DNA of 64,000 nucleotides from Bolinopsis microptera (taxonomy: Eukaryota; Ctenophora; Tentaculata; Lobata; Bolinopsidae), in contig NC_087078.1 in the NCBI RefSeq assembly GCF_026151205.1, positions 19,197,765-19,261,764 of the forward strand. The letters run 5' to 3'. The notes below the pieces were generated by a model that was not told the DNA's origin, ran no database searches, and was given only the letters and a program-made list of their open reading frames with translations. Each line of letters opens with the position of its first letter. Position 1 is the stretch's first letter. Shown one piece after another: positions 17,380-64,000 of this stretch. The translations under genes were made by a program, and so were the position numbers.

Positions 17380-20300
17380 TCACGTGTTACTATCATTCCC
17401 CTCACCACCCTGGTCATGTTCAGACTCACTCTTAATCTGTATCCCTGCTTGGAGAGCCGGCACAGGACTTTGTAAATTCGGCACACTACTTTGCAGTGCT
17501 GGCATGACTCGAGTCATGCGCGGCGCGGGTGATAAACACGGTATTATACCCAGTCCTCCTTGAGGGGACGATGAGTGTATTGGGGCAGGTTTTAGAGATG
17601 GTGGCCCGATGGGTCTCATGGGGTGTCTGATAGTGTTGTTAGATAGTCCACTCATGGGTGATAATACAGGAATACTTGGGACAACTGAATCACAGATCTT
17701 CACCAGCTTGGTGGGCTTTTTCAGCAGAGCTTCATCTCCATCACATCCAACGGGGCGTTTCCTCTTCTGAGCGATAATATCGGGTGGGCTTGGAATAGTT
17801 TTGAGAGAATCAGGCCCGAAAGGGCTGGACATGGTGGGCATGTGTCCCTGGGACATGGGAGGCGGTGTGAGCATTGGTCCGACGTCTGTAGGAACTGGGT
17901 TGTATTCAGAAAGAGAGCTCATAGCTTCACATTTTACTACAGTTGGAGGAGGACTAGCCACCTTCACAGAGCTCATATCGTAGTCTGACGAGATAACGGG
18001 AGATTCCTTTGTTTCTTGTTTGGGTTTCACGGGTTTGATGTTGTTTTTGTGGTGGTGGGTGAGGATCCTGAGTATACTATGCAGAGTCAGAGGAACAGAC
18101 AGGTATCTACTGGCAATCCCACTGAGAACTGATGTTTTCTGTGTGTCAGATGAGGATACGGCCACCACAGTTTCCGACCTGATCTGTGAGGAGAAGCTGG
18201 TCTGTGAGGAGAAGCTGGTCTGTGGTGAAATGTCCATGTTCATAACACAGAGCTGGGGTAGCTCGGGGTGAGCGAACACGAACTCGATGGAGCAGCCCGG
18301 TTGAAGGGTAATGTCAACTGTGGTCTGGTTGCAACATGTTGTTGTTGGGAGGTTGTCATGACAACTTAATATCAGCCTGTTGTAGACTGTTTGCTGTCGT
18401 AACATGTTGATAATCACTGGGACCTGTAAGTTGTTTAACAATATTTAGTTTTATATGACTAATAATGGAGGTGAAACGTGTTTTCTATAAATTAGATATA
18501 TTATATTATTATATTATTATATATTCATTTCATTTCATTGTACATATATATGACGCATAAATGTTAAAGCACACGGCATTTTCCTGACCATGGCTAAGAT
18601 AATTTCAATAATGTGTCCTCCAAACCTGGGATGGGTGTGAGAAGGGAATACGGTGAATTTCAACAGCTTTCTCATCGCCACTGCAGGGGAGGTAGTACAC
18701 GTGGTTCAGTTTGTTGTGTTTCAGAGACTTATCCTTGTTTTGCAGCACCTGGCTCAACCTGTAAACATGTTCATAATTACGTTACGAGTAGTATTAAAAA
18801 CAATAACGATCGTTATTTTCGTGAAACCAACCCGTTTAATCCAATAAAACAACGAAATTAATCTCCTTGGCCTAAGGCAAAAGAACAATGTCCCACAATA
18901 CCACAGAACAATGTGTCACAATACCACAGAACAATGTGTCACAATACCACAGAACAATGTCCACAATAACACAGAACAATTTCCACAATAACACAGAACA
19001 ATGTCCCACAATAACACAGAACAATGTCCCACAATAACACAGAACAATGTCCCACAATACCACAGAACAATGTCCCACAATACCACAGAACAATGTCCAC
19101 AATACCACAGAACAATGTCCCACAATACCACAGAACAATGTCCCACAATACCACAGAACAATGTGTCACATACCCCGCATTGTTGAGCAACAACTCCAGG
19201 AATGTGGTGGACACTGCCTCAACTTTAATGAGACTGTTGTTTCCTAGTTTCTTGAGGAGAGCGTTCATCTTAGATACGGTCATTACAAGGGGCCTACTTA
19301 GCCTCATTACAAATGTGGCTTCCACATATTCTGAAAAATACAACTCACGATGAGGAGATCAAATTATCTTGATCTAGATTATAAATAATTTTGGGCATCA
19401 TCCTTCTAAATTAAGAGAATATATTGAATTTACTTTTGTCAATTGGTCCCGCTGCTCACTAAACCAATAATTAAAAGAACAAATTAGGTAATATTACAAA
19501 CAGTACAGCGGGTTAACTTACCGGAATTAACTTTAAGGGACAACTGTTTAAACTCGTTGTTTCTGATAAACAAGTTTTGTGTTGGTAGTTGGTTGGTATT
19601 GGAACACTCCACTCCGATACTCACACTAGCTGACTCCTCCCCCAAAACATCACTCCCAGTCCCACTTTCTAGTTTCACTTTCACTTTCTCTTTCACTTTC
19701 TCTTTGGCTTTCACTTTGTTCTCACTGTTAATCAGTGACGTGTTGTGGAAGTACAGTATCTTGATGCCCATGCCACCACGTGACTTTATCACGTGACCAG
19801 TGTGGGTGTTGTTGATAGAGTAGGAGGTGGGAGGGTCTGGACTATTACTCATCACAATCAGGTCACTCTCCAGCGATCTGATCGATATATCGTATTTAGA
19901 ATTTATATACGAGGAATCATGATCATCAATATAGAGGCAGGTATAAATCGTTCATATTTGCAAAATTTATTGAGCAACAATATAATTGGACAAATTATTT
20001 TAAAAAACTGTGAAGAATGTTTTATCAAAAAACACATGTCCGTAACCAAACCTTAGAGCAGAAAACAGGATAGGTCGGACTCTGGGCTCCAAAGGAATGT
20101 TAAAAATGCTGATGAACCCCTTGAGGTGTTCCTGGAATTTGTTAAAGTCCCACTCGTTAAGCGTGTCCGCTATGTGGGGCTGGTCTTCTGGTTTTCCCTC
20201 CGTTACCAAACTCACTTTAGCTCCCGTACTCTGTGTTTAGTGGTAACGTTAGCAATCCAGGTATTCATATATTGGAGCTATTCACATATATATTGGGTAT

Positions 20301-29748: not shown

Positions 29749-29777
29749 ACTCTGACATTCTGACTTAGAGTTTGTAG

Positions 29778-32927: not shown

Positions 32928-32941
32928 ATATAAATTCAAAT

Positions 32942-34598: not shown

Positions 34599-34613
34599 TT
34601 TCAGTGTAACAGC

Positions 34614-41810: not shown

Positions 41811-44800
41811 ATGACAGGTAAATCGTTGATATTATGTTTGATATAATATTATAATATCAAGCATGATATCTTCTTGACGTTTCTTATTTGTTGTACCTTG
41901 TCCTTATTTCATAACCTATCTCCCTTTACACAAAGCCCCATTTTAGAAGCACTGCGAAGCGAGCTGTCCCGGAGGATGATGTACATGGATGGTGGTATGG
42001 GAACCATGATACAAGAACTCGACCTCAAGGAGGCTGACTACCGAGGTTTGAACTGTTAATTGGGATGAAAACTGTTAACTTTTCATAGTTATAAAATAAT
42101 GTAGATTTTTTTGATTCATTAAATTTGAAGCAACTACTGACTCAACCTTATAATAATTTTATTAGCTGTAGTTAAATAAAGTCTAAACAGGAGAACAGTT
42201 CTCCGAGCACCCGTGTCCGCTGATTGGTAATAACGACCTCCTCTCAATTACACAACCTTATCAGATCAAGAAGATTCACAAAGTTAGTTTTACCATATTT
42301 TCTAGGTTTTCGTTTACATTTTCCTATCTGTCGGGTTTCTTGTCTTTACATAACTTGGAAACTGCTGAAAACTTCAATTTTTTCTCTGGTATTAAACCGG
42401 GGTTTTAATTTATGGGTAGTGACACTGCCAGGTGACATCGATAAAATGGTATTTGTCGTGGAAGAGATGCTCTGCGTCCGATAAGAGAATTAACTTATCA
42501 ATTTACAAAGACTTAAATTTTTAACAAAGTTAAATTTTAACAATTCTTAATATAACCGGAGTACGTAATAATGACCAGATTATACTGCATTGTAAAAGTT
42601 TAATTAATATACAGGCTACGTCTGGTACTACCAGTACTGGTAAAATTGCAGTCCGGTCTGTAAGTTCATGACACTTATTTCTTCGTCAAACCCAAGCAGC
42701 TGTATGCAGCCCCCCGCCCCCCCCCCCCCCCCCCCCCGCCCCCGCTCAACCCCCCCCCCCCCCCGGTGGAACTGCAACTACCAACATGACATAAAAACAA
42801 CCTTATATATATATATATGATATACAGGGTGTACCACAGTATATCACATCAACTCTAATCTTTTTACAGGACTATCTACTGACTGGAGGAGCAGACTTCA
42901 TTTCTACCAACACTTTTAACTCAACAAGCATTGCAATGGCTGATTACCAGATGGAAAACTTGGTATGATAGTTAATAGTATGATTTAGTTTCATTCAAAA
43001 TACATTTTCTCTTTCCTACCCAATATTGAGGATAAAGTTTATTAAACTTTCCTATCCTGTTTTTACAAACTGTAATCCGTCAAATTTGGAACTGACACCC
43101 CCCCCCCCCCCCCCTAATCTTTACTCCCTTAGTAAATGTGATTTCTCCCAGGTGTACCAGCTGAACATGGCTGCAGCGAAGGTAGCAGTAGAAGCAGCCC
43201 AGGAAGTGACGTGTGAGACAGGAGTAGTGAGATATGTTATCGGAGTCCTGGGTCCCACTAACAAGACTCTGTCTTTATCTCCGAGTGTGGAGGACCCTGC
43301 TTTTAGGAATACCAGTGAGATTTTAGTAAAAATGAGAATCTCAGAAAATTGATGATAAAACGTCAGCGAATTATTAAATACAGTAACATAATATCATAAT
43401 ATATTATATAGTATATAATAGTTGTGCTAGTGATCATCTGTACAGCGGAGAGATCAAATCTCAGCTTGGTTGTCCGCCGGGGTAATAGTTACGTGCTCCA
43501 GCCTGGGTAATAGTTACGTTGTCCAGCCTGTGCCGCTTAGTTAGCTTAGTTAGCTTAGTTAGCTTAGTTAGCTTAGTTAGCTTAGTTAGCTTAGTTAGCT
43601 TAGTTAGCTTAGTTAGTGTATGACGTCATATCTTATCAGCGTTTGACGAGCTGGTAACAGCGTACACGGAACAAGCCACAGCACTACTCGACGGAGGCGT
43701 GGATATTCTCATGGTTGAGACCATATTTGATACTCTCAACGCTAAGGCCGCACTTTTTGCCATCAGTCAGCTGTTGGAGACGGACAAATATACACATTTG
43801 GATGTTCCTATTTTTGTAAGTTTTTATAATATCACGGATTTGATGAGTGAGTGAATTTTTTTCAAAAAAGTTATTATTTACGAATGAATTGGGTGCATTT
43901 TTGTGAAATATGAAATTGAAGAGAAAAACATAAATATTATGTAGTATACTAGTAGTAAATAGAGATATTACTACCACTTTCCTTTTATTTATTCTCTGGA
44001 TTTTGACTAAAATAACTTTCTTCCGCTGCGAATAAAGTTGAACTCAATACATTCCGCAGATTTCTGGAACTGTAGTAGATCTAAGTGGACGGACCTTGTC
44101 CGGACAAACAGTTGAGGCTATGGTAACGTCCCTAATGCACTTCAAACCTCTGTGTATGGGGCTCAACTGTGCTCTGGGTGCTACTGAAATGAGACAATTC
44201 ATTAGAGAACTAGGTTAGTTGGCTGCTAAATGGTAATTAATGGTTCTCTTATTTTTCACTATTTATTTTAGTATGTTTTCGATCGTTTGCAAAGAATAAT
44301 TCATATGCATATGAATTATTCTTTGCAAACGATCGAAAACATACTAAAATACCATATATATGGTCACGAGCGACAATTTGTAGTGCCAGAATTCTGCAGA
44401 ATTCTGACTCCATGAAAATTAATTCTAAACCAACTTTTTAAACAGGTGAGTTTTGTGATACGTATGTGAGTTGTTATCCGAACGCTGGACTACCTAACGC
44501 TTTTGGAGGATACGATGATTCTCCAGAGGAGATGGCTGAGATTCTACAGGTTTTTATAAACGGCTAGTTTTTTAATCAATAGAGTAACCCGGGTTTCCTA
44601 TCATTATTGCTCGAGAACCGTAGAGTAACCAAGTAACCAAATAACCAAGTAACCAAATAACCAAGTAACCAAGTAACCAAGTAACCAAATAACCAAGTAA
44701 CCAAGTAACCGAGTAACCATGTAACCAAGTAACCAAATAACCATGTAACCAAGTAACCAAATAACCAAGTAACCAAGTAACCAAGTAACCATGTAACCAA

Positions 44801-47800
44801 GTAACCAAGTAACCATGTAACCAAGTAACCATGTAACCAAGTAACCAAGTAACCATGTAACCAAGTAACCATGTAACCGAGTAACCAAATAACCAACTCC
44901 TCTCCTCAGGAGTGGTCGGACTCAGGACTAGTGAACATACTGGGGGGTTGTTGTGGTACCACACCGCAACATATCAGAGCTATTGTAGAAGCAACTAAAC
45001 ATGCTCCTCCCCGCTTACCGCACTCTAAACTGGACACCTTCAAACTCACTCTATCTGGTGAGAATAGTGTTTAATGATGAGCCCTTATTTTTCTTCGTGT
45101 TACTAGAGTCAGTGAATGCGTGAGGGGACTGAAGTGTCCGTCAGTTATGTGTTTTTAGTCGAGCTGTTATAACTTGTTTTAGCCGCATCGTTCATTTTAT
45201 AACAAAACCATTTTTCAGGTCTTGAACCCATGTTGGCGTTTGAAGAGAGCAACTTTATCAACATTGGGGAGAGGTGCAATGTGGCCGGTTCAACTGTATT
45301 CAAGAAACATATAATGAACGATGATTTTGCAGTGAGTATAACAGTGTTTGATGCAATTTTATTAAATCTAGACATCTATAATGTATACAGTATAACAGTA
45401 ACAGCTGTCAACAACGAAAATTTTCTCATTTTTGGTGGAAAATATGGATTGCGCCGTGTACATTGTAAAGGAAAATGGCGCGCAAATGCTATTATTTTGG
45501 CGCGCATGCATGCATGCAGTTACCTAAATACCTTAATTCCCAAAAATTTGGGCGACAAAAAATTTGAGCGGGCCTCTCGCCCAAATTTTTTGCAGACCAA
45601 ATAAATTGCATAAATCTTTTCCGTCTGCTAAATTTTTTGCTAACCAAACTTTTGGCATTTAGCCTGTGGCCCTGAGATCTTTACACTTTAGAAAGATGGC
45701 TTTTTCTTCATATCCAAGTGAAATAATATTTGAAATTTTAGTTTTCTAATCTGTCATTCATGGCTTAACCAAGTGAAATGACAGATTTCACTAGAAATTA
45801 ACGATTTTTAGTGGAAAATCGTTCATTTTTCGAAGAATTTGTGCCCAAATTTTTGGTCGCCCAAATGAGTTCAAATTTTCTGCCCAAATTTTTCGGGCTC
45901 AAATAAATTGTGCTCAATATAATGGCACACAAATTTTTGGGAACTAAGGTATACTTAGAGGAATCACGCCGAATGTTAGTTTCTCGGAAATATAGTTTCC
46001 CAATCTTGCATCTCGCCTGATGCCCAATGCGGGCAATGCCCATTACATCCCTTCATAGAAAGCCGAAAAGGGCTGCTTTATTTGACCGAGTGCAGTGGAT
46101 AGAATTAAGTCCCAGAGGTAGACCGAAGTTAAAAGGTCATAGTTATAGAACCTGAATAAATACCTAACCTTCACAATATAACACGTGATGTCGGGAAAAT
46201 CAGTAACGACAATTTTCTTAATGCTAATAATTTTTATTCAAATTTGTTTACGCCAAAAAATAAAATCAGATATCTGAAGATGGTGAAATCAACATGTTTT
46301 CTTCGTGCAGACAACTGCTCCGTTTCTGAGACAGGTGCAGACGTTGCAATCGTCCCTGATTTGCTCTCCCTCGTTGTATTCCTTGCCTTTGTATTCACAA
46401 GCTGCCCAAGCTTTGTCATCATCACAAATCTTTTTCGTGCAAGCAACTGCTCCATCTCTGAGACACCTACAAAGGTTACAGTAGTCCTTGAATCTGTCTC
46501 CTTCCTCGTATTGTTCGCCTTTATAATCGCAGGTGTCTTTGGTTTCTTCATCGCAGTTCTTTTTTGTGCAGACAACTTTTCCACTTCTTGTGCAGCCACA
46601 GTTGTTGCAATTGTCATGGAATCTCTCTCCTGCTTCGTATTGCTCACCTTTGTACTCACAAATGACGATAGTATCGTCATCACAATCGTCTCCGTCCGCT
46701 GTGCAAATAACTTTGCCATCTCCGAGACAGTGACAGAGGTTGCAGCCGTCTTTAAAATCTCCAGCTTCGTAATGTTTACCTTTGTACTCGCACATGGCAT
46801 CACAGTTTTTTTCAGTGCAGATAACTTCCCCAGTTCTGGTGCAGCCACAGTTGTTGCAGTCGTCCTTGAATCTTTCTCCTGCTTCGTATTGCTCACCTTT
46901 GTACTCACAAGTGGCTTCACCATCGTCACGATCACATGCTTTTGATGTGCAGACTACATTTCCATCTCTGAGGCAGTGGCAAATGTTGCAGTCGTCTTTG
47001 AATTCTCCAGCTTCGTATTTTTCACCTTTGTACTCACAAGTGGCTTCAACGTCGTCACGATCACAAGCCTTTGATGTGCAGACTACATTTCCATCTCTGA
47101 GGCAGTGGCAAATGTTGCAGTCGTCCCTGATTGCATCTCCAGCATTGTACTCCCTGCCTTTGTGTTCACAAGTTGCTTTGTCTTCGTCATTATCACAGTT
47201 CATCTTCGTGCAGACTACTTCTCCAGTTCTGGTGCAGCCACAGTTGTTGCAGTCGTCCTTGAATCTCTCACCAGCCCTGTATGTTTCACCTTTGTGCTCA
47301 CAACCTACGGGTACTGGTCTGTCACCTCTCACTGACACTGCAGCTAGTACCAGTATGACAATCACTAACATTATCTTCATCTTTAATTCCTTGAAGAGTG
47401 AAAAGGTTAAAATGAGTTGTTGGATTAAAGAATTGAAACTATAATTGTACGTGTAAAAGTTCATATGAAAAAAGCTCTGTCTATAACTGATAGTTAGGAC
47501 ATCAAGGAACATCGTCCTACATTAGCAAAAGTTAGCTGTGGTGTAAATTGTAAAGTCATATTAATTACATATGTAATTAATATGTATACATGTTGGTAAA
47601 ATGGATCAGTCTTTAAACGTTTAAAAGAGAGATCGTTTAGCAGTAAGTGACCCAGTCCAGGGCGAGAAAAATCTTTAAGGAAGCCCTTTCCGCTGCAATG
47701 AGAACATCAGAAAATATCTACTTTCCTCCGACTCCTCCGCCCCTTTTAAACGGCTTAACGTCCTTTGTTGATTTGTTTTACACATCTGGATCAGTGTGAA

Positions 47801-50800
47801 AAGTTTTTTATAATAAGGTCTATTTGTTAAATCCTTTGTTAAATCGTTTTTAACTTTAGAGTGTGAGAAGGTTTTTTAAAGAAATGTTTCTCACACTATA
47901 GAGGCGAAAATGACTCTTTTGTTAACATGTTTTTGTGCGTTAAGGAAATTTAAAAACCGCGATAACACGCCCATGACGGGCTCTAACCACAATAACAATT
48001 TTGCAATTTTAACATGAAGTTAGCTGGTAGTCGGGCTAATGCTCAGAGGGTGGTATATTTTGTTTTAAAGTGTGAACTGCGAGGACGAGATAGATGTTTT
48101 TTGTTATAAACTGATAAATAGCTTAATTGAACCTATTGTATTTTTATATAACACCTTTCCTCACTCCATCCTGAGCTAGACTAACAATGAGAATCTTTGT
48201 GTTTGCACCAATAGTAGTAGTATACACGCCATCTCCATGCAGTCCATTAAAACTATAAAAACAGAGTGAGGCTGGTCGTGGTGTTATGACGTTTCCTTTG
48301 TAAGTATCAAATATCATTACCGAAAAGTCAAGAAAAATGAAAATATAAACCTAAAAATATAAACGTACGATGTTTCTGCGTTCGTGAATTCCGCGTTATT
48401 TGACCATTATTGATCTCCACGAATAATAAATACACGATCTAAAATAACCGAGTTTAACCGGCGCGGAGGTTCTTTTTAGTTTAGTTTCATATTTCTCACC
48501 AGGCAGCACTAGAGATAGTTTAGTTAAAACTAAACACATTTCTCACCAGGCAGCACTAGAGATAGTTTAGTTAAAAGTAAACACATTTCTCACCAGGCAG
48601 CACTAGAGATAGTTTAGTTAAAAGTAAACACATTTCTCACCAGGCAGCACTAGAGATAGTTTAGTTAAAACTAAACACATTTCTCACCAGGCAGCACTAG
48701 AGATAGTTTAGTTAAAACTAAACACATTTCTCACCAGGCAGCACTAGAGATAGTTTAGTTAAAACTAAACACATTTCTCACCAGGCGGCACTAGAGATAG
48801 TTTAGTTAAAACTAAACATATTTCTCACCAGGCAGCACTAGAGATAGTTTAGTTAAAACTAAACACATTTCTCACCAGGCGGCACTAGAGATAGTTTAGT
48901 TAAAACTAAACATATTTCTCACCAGGCAGCACTAGAGATAGTTTAGTTAAAACTAAACATATTTCTCACCAGGCGGCACTAGAGATAGTTTAGTTAAATC
49001 TAAACACATGTCTCACCAGGCAGCACTAGAGATAGTTTAGTTAAAACTAAACACATCTCTCACCAGGCAGCACTAGAGATAGTTTAGTTAAAACTAAACA
49101 CATTTCTCACCAGGCGGCACTAGAGATAGTTTAGTTAAAACTAAACACATTTCTCACCAGGCAGCACTAGAGATAGTTTAGTTAAAACTAAACACATTTC
49201 TCACCAGGCGGCACTAGAGATAGTTTAGTTAAAACTAAACACTTTTCTCACCAGGCGGCACTAGAGATAGTTTAGTTAAAACTAAACACATTTCTCACCA
49301 GGCAGCACTAGAGATAGTTTAGTTAAAACTTAACACATTTCTCACCAGGCAGCACTAGAGATAGCCAGGAGACAGATTACAGAAGGTGCACAGATCCTGG
49401 ATCTTAACTTTGACGACGGAATGATTGACGGGGAGAAAGCCATGGCTCATTTTGTGAACCTGATTACGTGTGAACCTGACGTTTCTAGAGTCCCACTCTG
49501 CATCGATTCCTCGGACTTTCAGGTCAGTTCTCTCGTCCTAACTCCAATAATTGATCGACCCTTACTTTTACCCGCTTAGCAACTCTTGTGGAAAAAACTT
49601 GATCATAACTTTAACGCATTAACAATTCAATTCACTTTCCCAAATATTGAAGCTACCTGACCTCAATCGTCCTTATTTATATTTGTTTTGAACAAATATC
49701 ATTTTAACGAGTACGCCCAATTGGCTGCCCCGCCCCCCCCCCCCCCCCCCCCCCCCGGCCCCCCCCCCCCCCCCCCCCCCCCGCCAAGATAAACTACACA
49801 GGTAATAGAGGCGGGGCTGAAGTGCACTCAAGGGAAGTGTATTGTTAACAGTATCAGCTTGAAGGAGGGTAGGGAGGAGTTCCTTGCCAAGGCAGCTATT
49901 GTTAAAAGATATGGTGCTGCTGTGGTTGTAATGGCTTTCGATAAGCAGGGCCAGGTCAGCAGAAAGTATATCAACTTTCATCATCCAGGCTGTTAAATTC
50001 GCCAAATTTTCGTCAAAAAGTACGGCGTATTTAGAGTTCTCAGAAAGTACGCGAATAATTCGCCAATTTACAACTTCAAGTTTTAATTTTTAGGGCTGTT
50101 AGTGTTAAATTCGCCAAAAAATGCGCAGAAAATTCGGTAAAAATGCGGCAGTGGGAACTCGCAGCATTCTCGAGTACTAACCAGTAACCACGCACGTGTT
50201 GCGGGAAGCACATGTTTTGGCAATATTCCACCATACAAAGCCAACTTTCGTGAACAATTTGATGTGGGCACGTGATTTCCTGTTTCCGTATTTTTTTAAA
50301 TGCGGCAATTTTCAAAAAAAAATCGTACGCGAATTTAATTCGATTAATACGTTTAGTGCGAATTTAACAGCATTGTTTATCATTCCAATAATTTGTAGTT
50401 GAATTAGTTAAATACATACATCACATTTATGTGAATCAATAATTCAACATATTAATTAATAATTTAACCACGACCGCGACCGTCTTTCCACGTATTGTTT
50501 TTAAAACTCTAGTATTACCTGCTACATAATATACCCTATACAGGCGGACACGTTTAAACGGAAGATAGAGATCTGTAAACGGTCCTATGATCTGTTGGTG
50601 CATGAGGGTGGGTACAACCCTACAGACATTATATTCGACCCTAACCTGCTAACTATTGGAACCGGGCTGGTGGAGCATGCCGAGTATGGCCGGGACTTCA
50701 TCAGGGCCACTGAGTGGATCAAGGTTTTAAAATATACAATATATACATTCTTGGAAATTTCGGATTTACAATTTACATCGGTTAAAATATCTGTAATTTG

Positions 50801-53800
50801 AAACCTGGCTGTGATTAATTTGGTTCTCCTTTTAATTGTAGTATTTTGTGATTTTGTAATTTTTAATTTTTAATTTTTAATTTCAGAAAAACCTGCCCGG
50901 TGCCCATGTGTCTGGTGGACTTTCAAATCTTTCCTTTGCTTTCCGGGGAAACAGAATTATCCGAGAAGCGATGCATTCTGTCTTTCTGTCTTATGCTACT
51001 CAGGTAAGCTTAAACTCTGATATATCAGTATGATATGGAAAGACTGACGAGAGTTCTGAATGTGTTGCTGACTGCTGACTGCTGACTGCTGACTGCTGAC
51101 TGCTGACTGCTGACTGCTGACTGCTGACTGCTGACTGCTGACTGCTGACTGCTGACTGCTGACTGCTGACTGCTGACTGCTGACTGCTGACTGCTGACTG
51201 CTGACTGCTGAATATCGCACGTAGCTATCGCCATATAATGGAGGTCGTTAGTGTAAACCATATTCGTAAGTTCAAATGTTTTATTTCATAACACCCCTCA
51301 TTCTGCAGTTTGGTCTGGATATGGGGATAGTTCACGCTGGGAATCTCCCTCTTCTCAAAGATATTGACTCTACTCTCAAACAACTGTGCGATGATCTCAT
51401 ATGGAACCGAAACGGCGAGGAAGTCACCGACCTCATGCTGCTCTACGCAGAGGTTTGTAATTGGAATTTGGATACTGAACGGTGTCATATTATTCAGTTG
51501 TTTTAAACAACTTATCGGTTTTAAGTTATAGTGCAAAGATTTAGAATTGGCGGTTATTTACAAATTCGAAGTTCCTAGCGTTTCAAATGGAAATACCGTG
51601 AGACCCTCTATTATTATTATCAGAGATCTCAACCGCCAGTACTAAATTGTTTACGCTAATATAAGATACCTAGTCTTGTGTTGTTAATTGTTTTATTTAA
51701 TTTGTATTTTTGTGAGTCCTCTACCAGAGCTATTGCAGAAAGTTAAAGGTAGTGGGGGAAAGAAGAAGATGACAGACGATGATTGGTTCAAGAAACCGCT
51801 CGACGCGCGACTATCTGATGCCATAGTAAATGGAATCGACAAACATATAGTGACGGATGTTAAAGAACTACAGTTAACGACAGACATAGAACCTTTACAG
51901 ATTATTGAGGGTCCCCTGCTAGATGCTATGGGGATTGTGGGAGATCTCTTCGGATCCGGGAAGATGTTCCTTCCTCAGGTGCTTTCAAAATACAGATCAC
52001 AGTTCACACAATAAAACAATTAGCTAATTTCTTTATGAAGGTCAAAAATTGCGTTAATTACGTCTTAGTTTAAACTGACATTTCCTAATCAGTTTGTCTT
52101 TATTTTTATTGGAGCAATATGTTCAAGGTGATAAAAAGCGCGAGAGTAATGAAGAAAGCTGTTGCCTACCTCACTCCTTTTATTGAGGCATCAAAAGTTG
52201 AAGGACAGAATTACAAAGGTAACGATCAAGGATTTTTATCTGTCACGAAAAAGTCATTTTAAATAATCAAATTTTATGATTTTGCCTTCACTATATTTTT
52301 CCTGTGTCCACTGCTCCACGATTTCCTGCCCCAGATTTTACAGTCCTCTAAAATCTAAATCAATGCTAGAGTTGTTATAATAATGGGGATAGAGAGCAGG
52401 CCCATGAGTTGATATCACTGAACAACAGGATACAGCTCACAGCGCACTTCTTATTCTTGTTCCCTCCTTTAAAGGTACGATAGTGCTAGCCACAGTGAAG
52501 GGCGATGTCCACGATATTGGTAAAAACATTGTTGGTGTAGTGCTGGGATGCAACAACTACAGGTATTTATAATTCTCTACAGGTATTATATTACGCTGCT
52601 AGCTTTTATATAACTACTTATCTAATGAAGTTAGATCAGGATGAGCAAGTGTATCGGGGGGTTGATCTCTGATACCCTACTATATCTCTGTTGATACTAT
52701 ATTTCAATATAACTCTGCTGCAAAATTAATGGTTTGCCTCTACAGGGTTATTGATTTGGGGGTGATGTGTCCTTTAGAGAGGATACTGTCGACAGCAGAC
52801 AAGGAGAAGGCAGACATTATTGGAGTGTCGGGTATGTGGAATATAATTAGCAGATTATCATTACCGAGTACTCCTTACTCCTTTCGCGAATAATAACCTC
52901 TACGGTTATAACCTCAACGGTTATAACCTCAATCATAACCTTTATATCATAATCTTAATTATAACCTCTATATCATAGCCTCAATTATAACCTCTATATC
53001 ATAACCTCAATTATAACCTCTATATCATAACCTCAATTATAACCTCTAGTATAAACTGGTTTCCTTATCCCACAGGTCTGATAACTCCATCTCTAAGGGA
53101 GATGGTGAACATAGCAACTGAGATGAACAACAGGGGGATGACTACACCTCTACTTATTGGGGGAGCAACTACCAGCAGGTAGTGTGTGCTTTCTTAGTAG
53201 TGTGTGCTTTCTTAGTAGTGCAGTATCTTACAGTCGTCTCAGTGGTAACTACCAGCAGGTAGTGTGTGCTTTCTTAGTAATGCAGTATCTTACAGTCGTC
53301 TCAGTGGTAACTACCAGCAGGTAGTGTGTGCTTTCTTAGTAATGCAGTATCTTACAGTCGTCTCAGTGGTAACTACCAGCAGGTAGTGTGTGCTTTCTTA
53401 GTAATGCAGTATCTTACAGTCGTCTCAGTGGTAACTACCAGCAGGTAGTGTGTGCTTTCTTAGTAATGCAGTATCTTACAGTCGTTTCAGTGGTAACTAC
53501 CATGCCAGCAGGTAGTGTGTGCTTTCTTAGTAATGCAGTATCTTACAGTCGTCTCAGTGGTAACTACCAGCAGGTAGTGTGTGCTTTCTTAGTAATGCAG
53601 GTAGTGTGTGCTTTCTTAGTAATCTTACAGTCGTCTCAGTGGTAATTTATTACGTATGTTGGTAATTACTGGTAATTACAGGTAATTGATTACCTCAGAG
53701 GTACTGCTTTGTCTCCTCTTTCATCTTACAACTACAATAACATTCTATTCAGGAAGCACACACTACAATAACATTCTATTCAGGAAGCACACACAACAAT

Positions 53801-56416
53801 GACATTATATTCAGGAAGCACACACTACAATAACATTCTATTCAGGAAGCACACACAACAATGACATTATATTCAGGAAGCACACACTACAATAACATTT
53901 TATTCAGGAAGCACACACTACAATAACATTATATTCAGTAAGCACACACTAACATGACATTATATTCAGGAAGCACACACTACAATGACATTATATTCAG
54001 GAAGCACACACTAACATAACATTCTATTCAGGAAGCACACACTACAATAACATTCTATTCAGGAAGCACACACTACAATTACATTCTATTGAGGAAGCAC
54101 ACACTACAATAACATTCTATTCAGGAAGCACACCGCGGTAAAGATCTGGCCATCTTACCCCGACTTGTGTATCTACGTCCCGGATGCGTCCCGGGCCGTT
54201 AACGTGGCCACGTCCCTCGTTAACAAGGACCCGAAGTATATGGGGGACATTAGGAAGCTGTATGAGAAGGTGCAGCTGGATCACACCAAGGTTCTTCAGG
54301 TAGGAGATTTTTTTGAAATGAGTTTCCAGTTAGATACAGGTAGTTGTATTGCCGATCTTTTGGCAGGGCGACGGTTTACTTATTTTGAATTGAGTATATT
54401 TTTTACTGTGTCTGGTAACTCAGTAGGTATACCTACCTACTTAACTCGGTTTCTATTTTTACAGAAGAAACAAATAACCCCTCTACTAGACTGCAGAAAG
54501 AAGAGATTCCAATGCACCATGCCCACCCCTCCGACTCCAAACGAATTAGGTAATTATTTGTTTTATCACTTTATTATCAGACGAATACACTAATACAGTT
54601 GCCTGATTAAATATAAAATAACATACCGGGGTTACGTGTGTTTGAATTAATGTTCTAGAAAAGAAAAAAACAATTTCAGGGGTCCAAGTATTTGATAGTT
54701 ACGATCTGAACGAAGTCGTTGAGCTGATCGATTGGAAGCCGTTTTTCGATGTGTGGCAACTTCGTGGTCGTTACCCCAATCGGTCTTATCCCAAACTATT
54801 CGATGATAAGACAGTAGGTACGTAAGTCTTGTAGTTGTACACTGTCATAAGCTGTAGTACATATATAATTATATATTACATTACATTTTTTTAAATGGTT
54901 GCCCCCCCCCCCCCCCCCCCCCCATTGTGATTTAATTTAAATATCCTAATGACCCACCAGGAGCTGAAGCAAAGAAGCTGTTTGGTGATGCTCAGGAAAT
55001 GCTTGCGGAGTTGATGACGTCACTGGAAGGGAAGGCTGTGATTGGTCTGTTTCCAGCTCACTCCCAGGAAGATGACGTGATTATTCAGCACGGGGGACGG
55101 GATTTAACCTGTTACATGCTCAGACAGCAGGTTCAGTTCTAACCCTGTCTTTATTTCTTTAACCTATATACTATATAGTAATCCATTCATTACAAGTATG
55201 AAGACAAAACTGAGGAACCATATCTCAAATCAGTATCCATATCGCAGATAAAGTCAGGGAAAGAGGACGTGTACCTGAACACATCTGATTTCATTGGTCC
55301 ACCTGGGTCACATGATCACATGGGCATGTTCTGCTGTTCTATTTTTGGCTCTGTTGCCATGGCAGCTAAGTATGAAGATGCGGGTGATGATTACAATAGT
55401 CTCATGGTTAAGTCTCTGGCTGATAGATTGGTGAGCAAACTATTTTCCACCCTTATTTATGTTTGTTCAAATTCAATACAATCATATATAAGTATTTAAG
55501 TTAGCTTTGTAGATTTCTCCAGATGTGATCTATATATTATTTGGGTTAAGTTTAGTTTTATTGTCACCAGGTTGAAGCATTAGCTGAGCATCTCCACGTG
55601 AAAGTTCGCACAGACCACTGGGGATACGATAACAACGAGGACCTGGACATCGCCGACCTTCATTCTGTGAAATACCAGGTACATAAGTACAGACGATTAT
55701 TCGTAAATTATCATTGTCGGACCTTTATTAAACGCACCATTTTAAAATGTAGATTGTGGACCGATCTAAAAGCTCTTTTATCAGACCCTCTTGGAAAAAA
55801 TTAGATACTAAGGACACCAGTAGGGAAGAGTTGTGACTATACATTAGAAGTTAGTAGTAGTACTATTTGTATAGTCCCACTGTAAATATCCTGACTCAGG
55901 GCACAAGGCCAGCCCCCGGTTATCCGTCCCTACCTGACCACGCCCTTAAAGACGTGCTCTGGGACCTTCTCAGCGTGTCCGGCTCCATTGGAACTGAGCT
56001 GACTGACTCGTACGCGATGTCACCCCCTGCTAGTGTGTGTGGACTGTATATTGCACACCCGGACTCCTTTTATTTCAACCTGGGACTTGTAGGACGGGAT
56101 CAGGTGAGATTTATTCTTTACTCGTTAGTTCTGCTGCCTGTGTGCTACTTATTTTCCTTCTTTTAGTTTGGAATACTTATTTAATAGAGGTTATGGTTAA
56201 CTCCACAGAATGTTAAATCAACCTATTTGAGTTACCACTTATCTACCGTAACTGCAATCCAGCCTTATATTTATAATAGTAGTAGTATACTACTACTATT
56301 ATAATAGCTCTATACTTCATCAGGTGGAGGATTACGCCCAAAGACAGAATGTTAGTGCGAGTAGTGTTGAGATATCACTAGATACTGTGTTAGGATACGA
56401 GCCTGCCAAGAGATGA
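41811..56416 (+). CDS. MTR: cobalamin-dependent methionine synthase, 28 exons, 1229 aa
   Basis: Exons: 41811-41817, 41947-42045, 42191-42282, 42870-42962, 43152-43314, 43640-43815, 44060-44213, 44446-44549, 44910-45057, 45219-45331, 49349-49522, 49802-49954, 50544-50723, 50887-51003, 51309-51452, 51730-51978, 52128-52218, 52475-52562, 52746-52831, 53076-53178, 54125-54299, 54465-54549, 54680-54817, 54961-55130, 55248-55430, 55571-55678, 55900-56103, 56324-56416. All are GT-AG, phases close, total 3690 nt. It transfers a methyl group from methyl-tetrahydrofolate via B12 to homocysteine (cytosol). Domains: homocysteine/zinc ([11 protein letters not shown]247, C310 and C311 in GLNCALG and GGCCGTTP), folate ([20 protein letters not shown]), B12 with the cobalt-ligand H765 in GDVHDIGKN, and the AdoMet reactivation domain ([23 protein letters not shown]). 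Human MTR is 1265 aa. Exon 1 is only 7 nt (ATGACAG). Confidence 0.96.
42710..42764. repeat. C-rich tract in MTR intron 3
   Basis: About 55 bp of nearly pure C broken by a few bases, about 105 bp before the exon-4 acceptor. Confidence 0.95.
43537..43617. repeat. 9-bp tandem repeat (ttagttagc) in MTR intron 5
   Basis: About 9 copies, upstream of exon 6. The unit does not include the exon-6 acceptor. Confidence 0.95.
44264..44351. repeat. zero-spacer palindrome, 44-bp arms, in MTR intron 7
   Basis: Perfect symmetry around catatgcatatg (centre 44307/44308). Confidence 0.95.
44623..44897. repeat. 8-bp tandem repeat (gtaaccaa) in MTR intron 8
   Basis: About 34 copies of gtaaccaa with aataacc and catgtaacc variants, ending about 12 bp before the exon-9 acceptor. 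Minus-strand ORFs over it are repeat translation. Confidence 0.95.
45531..45949. mobile_element. MITE with ccttaattcccaaaaattt ends, TA target duplication
   Basis: Left end CCTTAATTCCCAAAAATTTG and inverted right end CCTTAGTTCCCAAAAATTTG, flanked by TA on both sides. About 419 bp, with internal degenerate copies of gcccaaatttttgg in both orientations. Inserted in MTR intron 10. Confidence 0.75.
46289..47380 (-). CDS. secreted 8-repeat cysteine-rich protein (pacifastin/VWC-like), nested in MTR intron 10
   Basis: 363 aa, single exon, antisense to MTR. Signal peptide [19 protein letters not shown], then eight repeats of about 36-45 aa with six cysteines each: C-x-Y/H-KG..Y..G..F/I-x-DDCN-x-C-x-C-x3-G-x-V-x-CT-x3-C. 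From the second cysteine on, this fits the pacifastin pattern C-N-x-C-x-C-x3-G-x3-C-T-x3-C, but the first loop is about 16 residues rather than 9-12; it also resembles short VWC modules. Two repeat types alternate, NNCGCTRTG (1, 4, 6) and N-x-C-x-CLRDG-like (2, 3, 5, 7, 8). Linkers are acidic. Extracellular; protease inhibition or adhesion are possibilities only. The upstream in-frame Met codons lie 5' of an acceptor (cttttcactcttcaag), so ATG 47380 is preferred. A minus-strand AATAAA is at 46238-46233. Confidence 0.85.
   Translation of the reverse strand: MKIMLVIVILVLAAVSVRGDRPVPVGCEHKGETYRAGERFKDDCNNCGCTRTGEVVCTKMNCDNDEDKATCEHKGREYNAGDAIRDDCNICHCLRDGNVVCTSKACDRDDVEATCEYKGEKYEAGEFKDDCNICHCLRDGNVVCTSKACDRDDGEATCEYKGEQYEAGERFKDDCNNCGCTRTGEVICTEKNCDAMCEYKGKHYEAGDFKDGCNLCHCLGDGKVICTADGDDCDDDTIVICEYKGEQYEAGERFHDNCNNCGCTRSGKVVCTKKNCDEETKDTCDYKGEQYEEGDRFKDYCNLCRCLRDGAVACTKKICDDDKAWAACEYKGKEYNEGEQIRDDCNVCTCLRNGAVVCTKKTC
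48480..49365. repeat. 47-bp minisatellite of the MTR exon-11 acceptor, 19 copies
   Basis: Strict 47-bp period. Every unit carries tttctcaccag|gcagcact then agagatag, which is the acceptor plus the first 16 nt of exon 11. The 19th copy (AG at 49347-49348) runs into the genuine exon 11. The rest of the unit is gtttagttaaaactaaac, a perfect hairpin (8-bp arms). Variants: caggcggcac for caggcagcac, and a few point changes. Confidence 0.97.
49728..49793. repeat. C-rich tract in MTR intron 11
   Basis: About 65 bp almost pure C, ending 9 bp before the exon-12 acceptor (aaactacacag); it could act as an extreme polypyrimidine tract. Confidence 0.95.
51064..51211. repeat. 7-bp tandem repeat (tgctgac) in MTR intron 14
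   Basis: About 21 copies, perfect. Minus-strand SQQSAV ORFs are repeat translation. Confidence 0.97.
52895..53048. repeat. degenerate 25-bp repeat in MTR intron 19
   Basis: Copies of ataacctctatatcataa followed by cctcaatt, just before exon 20; the acceptor is not included. Confidence 0.85.
53165..53643. repeat. 62-bp minisatellite of the MTR exon-20 donor, about 7-8 copies
   Basis: The first element is the true exon-20 end, actaccagcag|gtagtgtg (donor at 53179). It is followed by tandem 62-bp copies that each contain actaccagcaggtagtgtgt, i.e. the last 11 exon bases plus the donor. The unit also has ttacag, an acceptor-like AG. Confidence 0.95.
53747..54133. repeat. 31-bp minisatellite of the MTR exon-21 acceptor, about 13 copies
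   Basis: Units contain attctattcag|gaagcaca. The last copy is the genuine acceptor and first 9 nt of exon 21 (AG at 54123-54124, exon continues accgcggtaaag). Variants include attatattcag and tattgag. Confidence 0.95.
54902..54923. repeat. 22-bp poly-C tract in MTR intron 23
   Basis: Pure C, about 38 bp before the exon-24 acceptor. Confidence 0.95.
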
Positions 56417-57518
56417 TCATTCTCAAAGCTCAGCATACTGCAGACTTTGGTTTTTGGACTAAACAAAGTTACTTTTATTGTACCATATATTATTTAGTGT
56501 ATAAAGCTGCTTTTGTATGGATTTTATTTTCTTAATCAAACCATTCATACCTGTTTGTTGGAAATGTGCCAAGTTTATAATAGTTGGATCGTGGCCAAAC
56601 ATTCTCTTGGTTCCACCATGCTTGTCTGTATTTTTGCGAGGTTTATATTAACTAGCTGTGTATGTACTAATCTCTGAAATGTTCATATCAATGTAAGTGG
56701 CACAATTTATTTAGATCATGGGGAATTATTATTTTGGTGCAACTTAAGTTCTTTTATGTAATACGATGGTGAATGTCATCATTATTTTTTTATAACTTAT
56801 TGGTTCTTTTTATGTTTGGGAGTTCGTTTGTTGTTACTTTAATTTATTTCCTAATTTTATATACATAATTCATATTTGATACGATAATGTAGATAACCGT
56901 TTCCTGTTTGCTCATTGCTCCACCGTCACATCATACCCATAGTACATGAAAAATGAACATTTGGTATTTTAATTTTAATTTGTAATTTCCTAGTTATTAT
57001 GTTTTTACCTGAAACGTTGTATCCTTTGTTGTCTAAAATATTATATTATTTGATAGTAACCTCTTCTTAATGTGGGCGCATTAGATTTTTCACTTAAACC
57101 ATTCCAGCTTACAGATCAGAATTTTCTACCATATAATGTTAAATTTGTAAAAGTATAGACATAGTTGCTGTTAGTAACTAGGTAACTGTACTGTTAGTAT
57201 AGGGAGACAGATGAATAATGTATGGATTAATTTGGAGCCGAACTTAATTCAACATGTCTTATTCTAAGCTGAGCTGCTCGTATAAATACCATGATGCTCA
57301 TCATAATGTGGAGATCAAGGACTTGCAGACAATGTTTGAACCTAGGAAAGCGTCTAATATCCTTTTTAAACAGAGGCACATGTTTTTAAAATAGGTTATC
57401 TTCGCGAACTTTGCTGTGGGTAACAATAATACTGCACATTATACCGCACCAATACTGTATCATGCTAACTTTATCAAGATCAGAACAATGCCCAACCGGT
57501 CTCAGAGTGGGGGGTACC

Positions 57519-57553
<35 letters not shown>

Positions 57554-57885
57554 CGCCTCAGAGTCCAACATTAAACTCAGGAAGAGCTGTGTAAGACTAG
57601 CTACTCTCACTAATGTAAAGAAACTAGGGACTCTATTTAGCGGGATTTAGCTTAATTCGTTATTATAATGTCTTATTCTTAAAAGCTTAAACAAAGAAGA
57701 AAGATATCTGGGTTTTAGGAATGACGAGAAATTAATATTATCGTTCGTTTCTGAGCTGAAAGAGTTAGCCATCCCATGTTAATAACACACCCTGTTACTC
57801 CGAAATCCCTTACTGCACAAAAAGCAAAAATTATTATTTGATCTTTAATGACTAACCACAGCTATCTTTGTCCGTATTAACGACT
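56417..57885. other. MTR 3' flank
   Basis: Presumed 3' UTR then intergenic. A 31-C tract lies at 57520-57550. No gene is supported; see rejected items for a coding-looking stretch at 57254-57650. Confidence 0.4.
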
Positions 57886-57887
57886 GT

Positions 57888-59098: not shown

Positions 59099-59099
59099 T

Positions 59100-60394
59100 T
59101 CCCAAACACATCACGTGACAAGATAAGCCAGTTAGAACGACAAAGCAGTTACGGCCAACCAATCTTTTTTAAGTCTGCCATATTTCTACGTGGAGATTGC
59201 CCTATCCAGCTTATAACCAGGCGACGAGGCCTCCTTCCGATATTTGGCACTTAAAGTTGAACAAATTAAATTGTTGTAAGTCTGGACTTTGCCTGCTAAA
59301 CAGAAATCTCTTTGTTATTCTATAAAAGCCTGGTCTTTAGCCATTGAAACGAGACTGATCTTCTCTCTAACCTGTTGAAAATCACCTGCAGCAGCTATCA
59401 TAGCTGGGCTGTGGAACTGCATGTGGAACTGCATGTGGAACTGCATGTGGAACTGCTATGTTTATTATAGGTGATATTATAGGTGATACTTATTATACTA
59501 TTAGCACACTAGATTACCTAATCGATAGCCTAATATGTATCCCGTACCGTCCAGTATATATATATAATTAATTAATTTGGGCGGTCGATTTCGATTGTAG
59601 TTTTGATTTTCAAGCGTATATTAAATATCAATCTTTCAAGTTTCAATCGACCAATGGGGACATAGTAACTCGGTTTACGGTATAGTTAAATGTAGCGGTT
59701 CAAGGTTGATTTCAATTTTGTTTATAGCGATCTTTTAAGCAATCCATCTTCTTTCGTGCTTTGTACGGATACAAAGAGAATTAGAACTAAAACAAAAGGT
59801 CAACCTGTTGCTCAGAACATGTGCTATTCTCCGCAATTTGTTTATCGCCCTCCTGTGATGCAGTGCTTAATGTTAAATCACTGAGACCCTGACGGGAAGA
59901 GAGAGAACACGATTAGCATTGTCATAGCAACACGATTAGCATTGTCATAGCAACATGATTAGCATTGTGCATTAAATTGTGGTGTGAAACATGTGTTACG
60001 TAAGACAGAAACCAGCTGACGCTGTCGAATCAGAGTAAATTGCTATCGTGGCAACTAGAAATCTATGGTTCATGATAATGCACCGGCATTAGGGTACCGG
60101 GATGCTTGCGATGAGTGTTTTAGATAAAATTTTCTAATGTAAGAAGCCAGAGAATGTAAAACCCCCCCCCCCCCCCCCCCCCCCCCGACAAAGGTAATAC
60201 CACGTGACAGTCAGGCAGCAGGTTTTCTTGCTGTTTTAGAATACTTTTCTCAATCTAACAATTGAAGGCCAGATTTTCCGACTTCTAATCCAATCAGCAC
60301 CTCCACAGGTGCGGTTCTTTAGAGCAATACTTTAAATGTTTTCATCCGCTCCAATTCTAAATTCGCGACATATTGTTCCACACGTTTAGTCAAA
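59100..60394. other. intergenic, upstream of the glutaredoxin-like gene
   Basis: Small direct repeats: ctgcatgtggaa at about 59415-59455 and cacgattagcattgtcatag at about 59910-59965. A 25-C tract lies at 60162-60186. No gene seen. Confidence 0.45.
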
Positions 60395-61252
60395 ATGAAG
60401 CTTTCCGTAATTTTCGCACTTATTGGGCTTTCTCAGACTTTAAAGTAAGTAACTCATAACTTTAGAGTAAGTAACTCATAACTTTAGAGTAAGTAACTCA
60501 TAGCTTTAGAGTAAGTAACTCATAACTTTAGAGTAAGTAACTCATAACTTTAGAGTAAGTAACTCATAACTTTAGAGTAAGTAACTCATAACTTTAGAGT
60601 AAGTAACTCATAACTTTAGAGTAGTTAACTCATAACTTTAGAGTAAGTAACTCATAACTTTAGAGTAAGTAACTCATAACTGGATCAATTCATTATATTG
60701 TCAGTAACTTTATGCAATATTACTACTAATGCTGGTTATCAGTAGTAGTATGGTGAACTGGACCTTACGTAATCTCTGAGGGATAGGGAACCCGGCCCTA
60801 ATAACAATAAATAACAGTAACACCTGCAGCAACCTGAAATGGGACGCAGACTGCTCCAACCTCGACCCAGCTGCTGCCAAGCATGTTGAAGATAAGATAG
60901 CCGGCAGCAAGGTATACCTCATCGGCCTCACTTATTGTGGATGGTGTACAAGAGCCAAAAGTGTCATCCAGAAAATGGGTTAGAAGTTGAATTTCAACTT
61001 TCACTGTTTAGTTTCAACTTTCACTGTTATATGTTATAAATATAACATATAACAGTATGTTTTCTGGGTAAATATGTTATAAATATAACTATATCAAGTT
61101 CTCATTAAACTTCTATTTAAACTTCTCATTAAAATTCAGCTTTACTTGATGAATGGACAAATGTTTTAATTGGGCGCGATTGAGCTATAAATATATCATT
61201 GATTAACACCTAAAATACGCAGGATTTGACAAGAGTGATATTGAGGTAGATG
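60395..61252 (+). CDS. secreted or ER glutaredoxin-like protein, 5' part
   Basis: Exon 1 60395-60444 encodes a signal peptide MKLSVIFALIGLSQTL. Exon 2 60830-60978 encodes NLKWDADCSNLDPAAAKHVE, DKIAGSKVYLIGLTYCGWC, TRAKSVIQKMG. Phases join (aa|c and g|ga). The strand-helix-CxxC context fits a glutaredoxin or thioredoxin fold with the CGWC redox motif. Exon 3 is expected to start GFDKSDIEVDV; that sequence first appears at 61223, but it is the first copy of the following array, so the true exon 3 may be a later copy or lie beyond the window. Reading through the first copy meets TGA after IRRI. An acceptor (ccacacgtttag) lies 5 nt before the ATG. Probably a disulfide oxidoreductase of the secretory pathway; the rest of the gene is missing. 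Confidence 0.7.
60438..60680. repeat. 22-bp minisatellite of the glutaredoxin exon-1 donor, about 11 copies
   Basis: The true junction reads actttaaa|gtaagtaactca; the copies read actttaga|gtaagtaactca plus taa. Each carries a near-perfect U1-matching donor GTAAGTA and the last exon bases. Confidence 0.97.
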
Positions 61253-64000
61253 TAACACCTAAAATACGCAGGATTTGACGAGAGTGATATTGAGGTAGAT
61301 GTAACACCTAAAATACGCAGGATTTGACGAGAGTGATATTGAGGTAGATGTAACACCTAAAATACGCAGGATTTGACGAGAGTGATATTGATTAACACCT
61401 AAAATACGCAGGATTTGACGAGAGTGATATTGATTAACACTTATTATACGCAGGATTTGACGAGAGTGATATTGAGGTAGATGTAACACCTAAAATACGC
61501 AGGATTTGACGAGAGTGATATTGATTAACACCTAAAATACGCAGGATTTGACGAGAGTGATATTGATTAACACTTAAAATACGCAGGATTTGACGAGAGT
61601 GATATTGATTAACACTTAAAATACGCAGGATTTGACGAGAGTGATATTGATTAACACTTAAAATACGCAGGATTTGACGAGAGTGATATTGATTAACACT
61701 TAAAATACGCAGGATTTGACGAGAGTGATATTGAGGTAGATGTAACACCTAAAATACGCAGGATTTGACGAGAGTGATATTGATTAACACCTAAAATACG
61801 CAGGATTTGACGAGAGTGATATTGATTAACACTTAAAATACGCAGGATTTGACGAGAGTGATATTGAGGTAGATGTAACACCTAAAATACGCAGGATTTG
61901 ACGAGAGTGATATTGATTAACACCTAAAATACGCAGGATTTGACGAGAGTGATATTGATTAACACTTAAAATACGCAGGATTTGACGAGAGTGATATTGA
62001 TTAACACTTAAAATACGCAGGATTTGACGAGAGTGATATTGATTAACACTTAAAATACGCAGGATTTGACGAGAGTGATATTGATTAACACTTAAAATAC
62101 GCAGGATTTGACGAGAGTGATATTGATTAACACCTAAAATACGCAGGATTTGACGAGAGTGATATTGATTAACACTTAAAATACGCAGGATTTGACGAGA
62201 GTGATATTGATTAACACTTAAAATACGCAGGATTTGACGAGAGTGATATTGATTAACACTTAAAATACGCAGGATTTGACGAGAGTGATATTGATTAACA
62301 CTTAAAATACGCAGGATTTGACGAGAGTGATATTGATTAACACTTAAAATACGCAGGATTTGACGAGAGTGATATTGATTAACACTTAAAATACGCAGGA
62401 TTTGACGAGAGTGATATTGATTAACACTTAAAATACGCAGGATTTGACGAGAGTGATATTGATTAACACCTAAAATACGCAGGATTTGACGAGAGTGATA
62501 TTGATTAACACTTAAAATACGCAGGATTTGACGAGAGTGATATTGATTAACACTTAAAATACGCAGGATTTGACGAGAGTGATATTGATTAACACTTAAA
62601 ATACGCAGGATTTGACGAGAGTGATATTGATTAACACTTAAAATACGCAGGATTTGACGAGAGTGATATTGATTAACACTTAAAATACGCAGGATTTGAC
62701 GAGAGTGATATTGATTAACACTTAAAATACGCAGGATTTGACGAGAGTGATATTGATTAACACTTAAAATACGCAGGATTTGACGAGAGTGATATTGATT
62801 AACACTTAAAATACGCAGGATTTGACGAGAGTGATATTGATTAACACTTAAAATACGCAGGATTTGACGAGAGTGATATTGATTAACACTTAAAATACGC
62901 AGGATTTGACGAGAGTGATATTGATTAACACTTAAAATACGCAGGATTTGACGAGAGTGATATTGATTAACACTTAAAATACGCAGGATTTGACGAGAGT
63001 GATATTGATTAACACTTAAAATACGCAGGATTTGACGAGATTGATATTGATTAACACTTAAAATACGCAGGATTTGACGAGAGTGATATTGATTAACACT
63101 TAAAATACGCAGGATTTGACGAGAGTGATATTGATTAACACTTAAAATACGCAGGATTTGACGAGAGTGATATTGATTAACACTTAAAATACGCAGGATT
63201 TGACGAGAGTGATATTGATTAACACTTAAAATACGCAGGATTTGACGAGAGTGATATTGATTAACACTTAAAATACGCAGGATTTGACGAGAGTGATATT
63301 GATTAACACCTAAAATACGCAGGATTTGACGAGAGTGATATTGATTAACACGTAAAATACGCAGGATTTGACGAGAGTGATATTGATTAACACTTAAAAT
63401 ACGCAGGATTTGACGAGAGTGATATTGATTAACACTTAAAATACGCAGGATTTGACGAGAGTGATATTGATTAACACTTAAAATACGCAGGATTTGACGA
63501 GAGTGATATTGATTAACACTTAAAATACGCAGGATTTGACGAGAGTGATATTGATTAACACCTAAAATACGCAGGATTTGACGAGAGTGATATTGATTAA
63601 CACGTAAAATACGCAGGATTTGACGAGAGTGATATTGATTAACACTTAAAATACGCAGGATTTGACGAGAGTGATATTGATTAACACTTAAAATACGCAG
63701 GATTTGACGAGAGTGATATTGATTAACACTTAAAATACGCAGGATTTGACGAGAGTGATATTGATTAACACTTAAAATACGCAGGATTTGACGAGAGTGA
63801 TATTGATTAACACCTAAAATACGCAGGATTTGACGAGAGTGATATTGATTAACACTTAAAATACGCAGGATTTGACGAGAGTGATATTGATTAACACTTA
63901 AAATACGCAGGATTTGACGAGAGTGATATTGATTAACACTTAAAATACGCAGGATTTGACGAGAGTGATATTGATTAACACTTAAAATACGCAGGATTTG
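61205..64000. repeat. 49/42-bp minisatellite of the glutaredoxin exon-3 acceptor, 60+ copies, leaves the window
   Basis: Units contain aaaatacgcag|gatttgac then gagagtgatatt, the acceptor plus the start of exon 3 (GFDESDI). Two forms exist: 49 bp with gaggtagatgtaac (nearer the left end) and 42 bp with gattaac (the majority). Copies are almost identical over 2.8 kb. Confidence 0.98.

Follow-up and report, generated by a model that had tools for sequence, protein, structure and literature searches.

Tandem arrays beginning beside splice sites in the ctenophore Bolinopsis microptera resemble the mirage minisatellites of lancelets

A 64-kb stretch of contig NC_087078.1 from the ctenophore Bolinopsis microptera (assembly GCF_026151205.1, positions 19,197,765 to 19,261,764 of the forward strand), hereafter called the window, was analysed together with other loci of the 265-Mb genome (232 contigs). 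The window contains the methionine synthase gene (MTR) and a glutaredoxin gene, both of which carry minisatellites with units that run across exon-intron junctions. In a sample of 139 junctions outside the window, tandem arrays start beside splice sites, above all donors, at several times the density found elsewhere in introns. By a modest balance of probability, the junction arrays appear to be minisatellites of the type known as mirages in lancelets: a segment across the junction would have been duplicated in tandem and expanded on the intron side, the exon-adjacent copy would be the one used in splicing, and a bias of duplication towards exon edges would be the likeliest cause.

The two genes and their junction arrays are as follows; a slash marks the splice site, and copy numbers include the genuine copy.

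43152..56416, plus strand: methionine synthase (MTR) gene; its 24 exons were located from consensus splice sites and share one frame
48491..49364, plus strand: acceptor array of MTR intron 45332-49348, unit 47 bp, 19 copies of caccag/GCAGCACTAGAGATA
53165..53623, plus strand: donor array of MTR intron 53179-54124, unit 62 bp, 7 copies of ACTACCAGCAG/gtagtg
53731..54133, plus strand: acceptor array of MTR intron 53179-54124, unit 31 bp, 13 copies of ttcag/GAAGCACAC
60395..64000, plus strand: two-domain glutaredoxin gene with a likely signal peptide (judged by eye), extending beyond the window end
60437..60681, plus strand: donor array of glutaredoxin intron 1, unit 22 bp, 11 copies of ACTTTARA/gtaagtaactcata
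61200..64000, plus strand: acceptor array of glutaredoxin intron 2, unit 42-49 bp, 68 copies of acgcag/GATTTGACGAGAGTGATATTGA
Outside the window: further glutaredoxin donor array, unit 36 bp, 16 copies, spanning the junction

Tandem arrays were called with Tandem Repeats Finder (TRF). An earlier note on this DNA had described at least five arrays in the window with junction-spanning units, three in MTR and two in glutaredoxin, and had placed the genuine splice site in the terminal copy on the exon side. TRF and the rebuilt gene models showed that these arrays are real, and the read-through frames agree with the placement of the sites. The MTR acceptors 49348/49349 and 54124/54125 are the terminal copies of their arrays and the donor 53178/53179 is the first copy of its array, with 16, 9, and 14 exon bases, respectively, recurring in the nearest copies. 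The MTR product gave a single match to the NCBIfam methionine synthase model (residues 1-1146, 1548.9 bits against a cut-off of 1497), and this match passes through all three repeat-bearing junctions, in agreement with use of the exon-adjacent copy; further 5' MTR exons were found from about position 41946. Once the DNA beyond the window was added, seven glutaredoxin exons, the last of them partial, could be read through, and the product matched Pfam Glutaredoxin (6.4e-16). The genuine donor of glutaredoxin intron 1 (60444/60445) is the first array copy. The array of intron 2 ends 100 bp beyond the window, and its terminal copy holds the genuine acceptor 79 bp beyond the window, out of sight of the earlier note. 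According to the TRF coordinates, 5 of the 13 arrays in the MTR and glutaredoxin spans cross a splice site; the tally becomes 6 with the array at the MTR donor, in which TRF overlooked the first copy. These six comprise three donor and three acceptor arrays with units of 22, 31, 36, 42, 47, and 62 bp, and between 7 and 22 exon bases recur in their nearest copies.

The junctions outside the window were taken from 93 of the 144 exon matches counted there, with matches beyond the sampled DNA, near-identical copies, and intronless, weak, or frame-broken matches omitted. Because TIGR00957 mostly picked up ABC genes whose open frames are long, only 5 of its 13 matches entered the sample. The 186 edges of the 93 matches yielded 139 junctions (flippase family, 50; myosins, 83; ABC, 6) that had a site score of at least 2.5 and lay at most 20 bases from the match end, after the removal of duplicates. 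With 52 junctions from MTR and 12 from glutaredoxin the full list holds 203, in which three 5' MTR junctions (42046, 42193, and 42283) are misplaced by 1-2 bases, with hardly any effect on array distances. Around the 139 outside junctions, the intron stretch at 0-25 bp offered 3265 bp at risk and held 10 array starts, a density of 3.06 per kb. In a pseudo-junction control drawn from the same loci (400 replicates, with a locus-matched version run as well), the mean was 0.54 per kb and the maximum 2.07 per kb, and the observed density was reached in 0 of 400 replicates and 0 of 400 locus-matched ones. The near/far ratio of array starts outside the window was 5.2, a value reached in 1 of 400 replicates and 0 of 400 locus-matched replicates, and it was 3.0 (p 6e-4) when spanned sites were included. 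The ratio was 5.1 for donors and 5.7 for the flippase family. When all 203 junctions were taken together, the first 25 bp of the intron held 15 starts (3.1 per kb) and the next 25 bp held 2 (0.44 per kb), and past 100 bp the density was 0.28-0.73 per kb. The near arrays often resemble the splice signal beside them, with AAG/gta words after donors and pyrimidine tracts or taac words before acceptors (by eye).

In addition, the whole genome was searched for three copies of a splice word spaced 6-36 bases apart. The donor words AGGTAAGT and AGGTGAGT gave 1212 and 1016 tandem matches, respectively, and two sets of three sister words, each one letter away from AGGTAAGT and two away from AGGTGAGT, gave 371 (AGGVAAGT) and 1058 (AGHTAAGT). 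Read backwards, AGGTAAGT occurred in tandem only 11 times against 1212 forward, a contrast that overstates the donor excess, since the other backwards controls were higher: 184 for AGGTGAGT, 283 for AGGVAAGT, and 142 for AGHTAAGT (three words each for the latter two). As a single word, AGGTAAGT occurs 10758 times genome-wide and its backwards form 7965 times. Array counts are a better measure than match counts because a match stands for a copy and not for an event, and some units are found in more than one place. Arrays on contig C1 were therefore counted by eye, giving 5 for AGGTAAGT, at least 12 for AGGTGAGT, and 6 and 9 for the two sister sets. The comparison of at least 17 donor-word arrays with 15 sister-word arrays gave p 6e-4, or 1.6e-5 with single-word sample frequencies. 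Among the five AGGTAAGT arrays counted there, two have the same unit, as do two of the AGGVAAGT arrays.

A strict junction-copy test was also performed, in which coordinates were collapsed, every array was counted once, and junctions were compared with intron positions. Two or more extra copies of the junction were present at 3 of 52 MTR, 3 of 12 glutaredoxin, 4 of 50 flippase-family, and 0 of 6 ABC junctions. The flippase-family cases are the only ones among the 139 outside junctions, where one more junction has a single extra copy, and about 1.7 such cases were expected there (calculated by hand). The local intronic rates were 4.4% for MTR, 7.7% for glutaredoxin, 1.85% for the flippase family, 0.82% for the myosins, and 1.1% for the outside loci jointly. 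On its own this test is weak evidence, and the window had been picked for looking odd. The suggestion in the earlier note that such arrays form a recurrent class was supported by the like arrays at flippase-family junctions far from the window and by the clustering of array edges at splice sites. One flippase-family donor copy (43-bp unit, about 30 exon bases) is present twice at the donor (contig C13, 6287600-6287740) and also forms a 7-copy array 3.4 kb downstream (C13, 6291009-6291309), as if one array had been split.

The arrangement of the copies suggests how these arrays may have formed. A short segment across the exon-intron junction would have been duplicated in tandem, and slippage or unequal exchange would then have expanded the array; the extra copies all lie on the intron side. 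The copy that abuts the whole exon would still be spliced, presumably chosen by its exon context, so that the gene keeps working. The decoys would lack most exon enhancers because only 7 to 22 exon bases are present in the copies examined. The copies themselves are well preserved as sites: of 134 in the six arrays, 133 keep AG or GT, and 104 of 128 decoys equal or exceed the genuine site in score (the scoring matrix having been trained on these two genes), although none of the 10 decoys of glutaredoxin intron 1 does so. Splicing at the exon-adjacent copies leaves the reading frames of MTR and glutaredoxin open. Computed splicing at a decoy, on the other hand, introduced a premature stop in 128 of 128 cases, and such transcripts would probably be destroyed. 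As for the clustering, the likeliest cause would be a tendency of this genome to initiate tandem duplications at exon edges more than elsewhere. It is possible, though we hold it only tentatively, that exon edges, above all donors, are birth hotspots of tandem repeats through a process tied to the boundary, such as exon-end chromatin or the DNA-RNA hybrids of co-transcriptional splicing, which would repeatedly turn splice sites into decoy arrays.

Arrays of this kind are known from lancelets, and the ctenophore junction arrays seem to belong to that kind and are not a new class. As described in passages of PMC3087553 and PMC3902484, mirages are minisatellite-like arrays made of tandemly duplicated exon-intron boundaries, known from the Adh3, globin, troponin C, and PGBD5 genes and reported between 2002 and 2013; they occur at both 5' and 3' boundaries, are unstable in length, and reportedly leave splicing undisturbed. 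Their units measure 10-72 bp in Adh3 and 150-160 bp in globins (PMC3087553). As in those accounts, the ctenophore units hold both intron and exon bases across donors or acceptors and are of minisatellite size, and the genuine site, here judged from reading frames, is the copy next to the exon. Unlike the lancelet examples described there, the present arrays occur in another phylum, reach 68 copies, and number three in each of two genes; the clustering of array edges at splice sites also goes beyond what those passages describe. Searches of open-licence papers returned no report of mirages in ctenophores. Internal tandem repeats at exon-intron boundaries have also been described in human segmental duplications (PMC2812944, in part). 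These are likewise boundary minisatellites able to alter splicing, but they were described in recent primate gene duplicates with altered transcripts, whereas the two genes studied here are conserved and their frames fit normal splicing.

Several findings weigh against a bias towards junctions. They would fit chance combined with tolerance, in which random duplications in a minisatellite-rich genome often cover splice sites and splicing copes. Outside the window, 8.9% of the DNA sampled consists of repeats, and an array that spans a site is by itself unsurprising because repeats are so dense. Longer units also span sites more readily: the spanning units measure 22-62 bp and the others 7-26 bp, apart from a 132-bp coding repeat. 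The strict junction-copy total was 10 of 203 against about 5 expected (roughly twofold, by hand calculation). The 3 MTR cases compare with 2.3 expected, so that chance is not rejected there, and their rate is close to the local intronic one. No junction copies were found at any of the 83 myosin junctions, and the myosin near/far ratio of 1.0 indicates no clustering. Outside the window, acceptors gave no clear signal (ratio 1.7, p 0.17), and flippase-family loci supplied 11 of the 13 near events. Over all 203 junctions, the density was still somewhat raised at 50-100 bp (11 starts, 1.26 per kb). The tandem acceptor word TTTTCAGG showed no per-site enrichment (186 matches against 84 backwards, with 18 and 6 singles, respectively, in a sample). 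On the other hand, chance with tolerance does not readily account for a start density that the pseudo-junctions never reached, for its steep fall between the first and second 25 bp of the intron, or for the tandem enrichment of donor words. We therefore judge it unlikely, though far from negligible. The earlier note had allowed for either a mutational bias or tolerance and had proposed array-edge enrichment as the check. The check was partly positive: the enrichment was found at donors and argues for more than tolerance, but the lack of an excess in the myosins, the predominance of the flippase family, and the modest strict count weigh the other way.

The main alternative cause of the edge clustering would be the selective retention of arrays that are tied to a functional copy: arrays would form anywhere, and those resting on a functional signal would last, since selection would remove deletions that reach into the exon or the signal and the terminal copy would stay whole. 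This would suit the similarity of the copies: in a list limited to 22 copies per array and to 5 mismatches, all but two differ from the genuine 24-base junction at no more than 3 positions. It would also suit the pyrimidine tracts or taac motifs often repeated near acceptors (by eye). However, it seems doubtful that protection from deletion could be strong enough to produce a fivefold excess, and donors, which have few conserved intron bases, cluster more than acceptors; survival in place of biased birth is thus improbable. Selection for the decoys themselves, serving either as reserve splice sites or as brakes by which splicing is tuned or transcripts are routed to decay, might be read from the intact AG or GT in 133 of 134 junction copies (six arrays, genuine sites included). 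Such intactness is, however, expected of young homogenised arrays, and the arrays are present in some sampled gene families and not in others. Furthermore, no decoy can be a useful spare site because every one yields a premature stop. We consider selected decoys very improbable. Intron gain by tandem duplication of an AG/GT segment is a known route (Rogers; Zhuo 2007; Gao and Lynch 2009, as cited in PMC3087553), also described for potato RdRp (PMC4974935), and the present units would likewise have arisen by tandem duplication over splice-site sequence. Unlike in those descriptions, the intron here pre-exists, its ends are unrelated, and the extra copies are intronic and would be discarded. An origin of five introns by this route was rejected, because the best 20-mer identity between their ends was 10-14, with shuffled means of 10.7-12.1 and a shuffled maximum of 14 in each case; in favour of such an origin, the value for glutaredoxin intron 4, 14, reaches that maximum. 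In MTR intron 53179-54124, moreover, the donor-side and acceptor-side units are unrelated (by eye). The resemblance to intron birth seen in the earlier note was therefore not upheld, and such an origin is hardly credible.

Seven of the 13 arrays in the MTR and glutaredoxin spans do not cross a splice site, and four of them stop 3-24 bp short of an acceptor. The MTR examples (TRF) and an array in MED1 are as follows.

43535..43616, plus strand: non-spanning MTR array, unit 9 bp, stopping 24 bp short of the acceptor
44624..44896, plus strand: non-spanning MTR array, unit 8 bp, stopping 14 bp short of the acceptor
52922..53054, plus strand: non-spanning MTR array, unit 26 bp, stopping 22 bp short of the acceptor
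18882..19164, minus strand: MED1 intron array, unit 23 bp, beginning at the donor 19174/19173

The MED1 array had been put forward as a weaker sixth case; its start does coincide with the donor, yet no more than about two exon bases are repeated (by eye). The MED1 gene itself is supported by a match with E 7.7e-5 and 22.4 bits, slightly below the Pfam cut-off of 25. An MTR intron also holds 21 copies of TGCTGAC (51066-51211), about 98 bp upstream of the acceptor; this unit resembles a branch-point consensus, and the repeat may therefore be a branch-site array. A minus-strand gene of tandem cysteine-rich repeats (VWC-like by eye) is nested in the 4-kb MTR intron at 46289-47521. Nested intronic genes are described as common in Hormiphora in a passage of PMC8527503.

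A spliced-leader-like sequence lies on the opposite strand of a glutaredoxin intron (L009, about 2540-2583, minus strand). It is one of two copies of a ctenophore-type, spliced-leader-like sequence, ACTTTCAACACTACTATATAAC(G/A)AATAATTTGAG, that were found in 251 kb (L009 and L065), ending in AATTTGAG; 33 and 31 of their 44 bases, respectively, are identical to the Hormiphora leader. The leader of this genome seems to differ from that of Hormiphora in detail, because a 15-mer with GT derived from Hormiphora has just 5 exact occurrences in the whole genome. The window also contains a non-long-terminal-repeat retrotransposon on the minus strand (26854-31457, by eye), with an endonuclease-reverse transcriptase frame and a PHD-like zinc-finger frame; a 601-base piece of it gave 29 genome matches that are 98-100% identical, three of them partial. 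Five long C-rich homopolymer-like runs are located at 14968-15001, 42710-42764, 49728-49785, 57517-57559, and 60162-60186. Scans of the window with Rfam (gathering threshold) and for tRNA genes gave no matches. For this species, 13 scaffolds are reported to hold 97.23% of the bases, about 254 Mb (PMC10232365, in part).

In these genes the spliceosome faces up to 68 near-identical junctions and must pick the right one. The arrays are therefore natural test cases, in which 7 to 68 nearly equal sites stand beside one real exon and the local sequence is indecisive. If exon edges are indeed birth hotspots of tandem repeats, the decoy arrays would be a standing supply for new exons and introns. Mirages in a ctenophore, together with the clustering of array edges at donors, suggest that what has so far appeared, in the accounts cited above, as a curiosity of lancelets is a recurrent and measurable mutational phenomenon.

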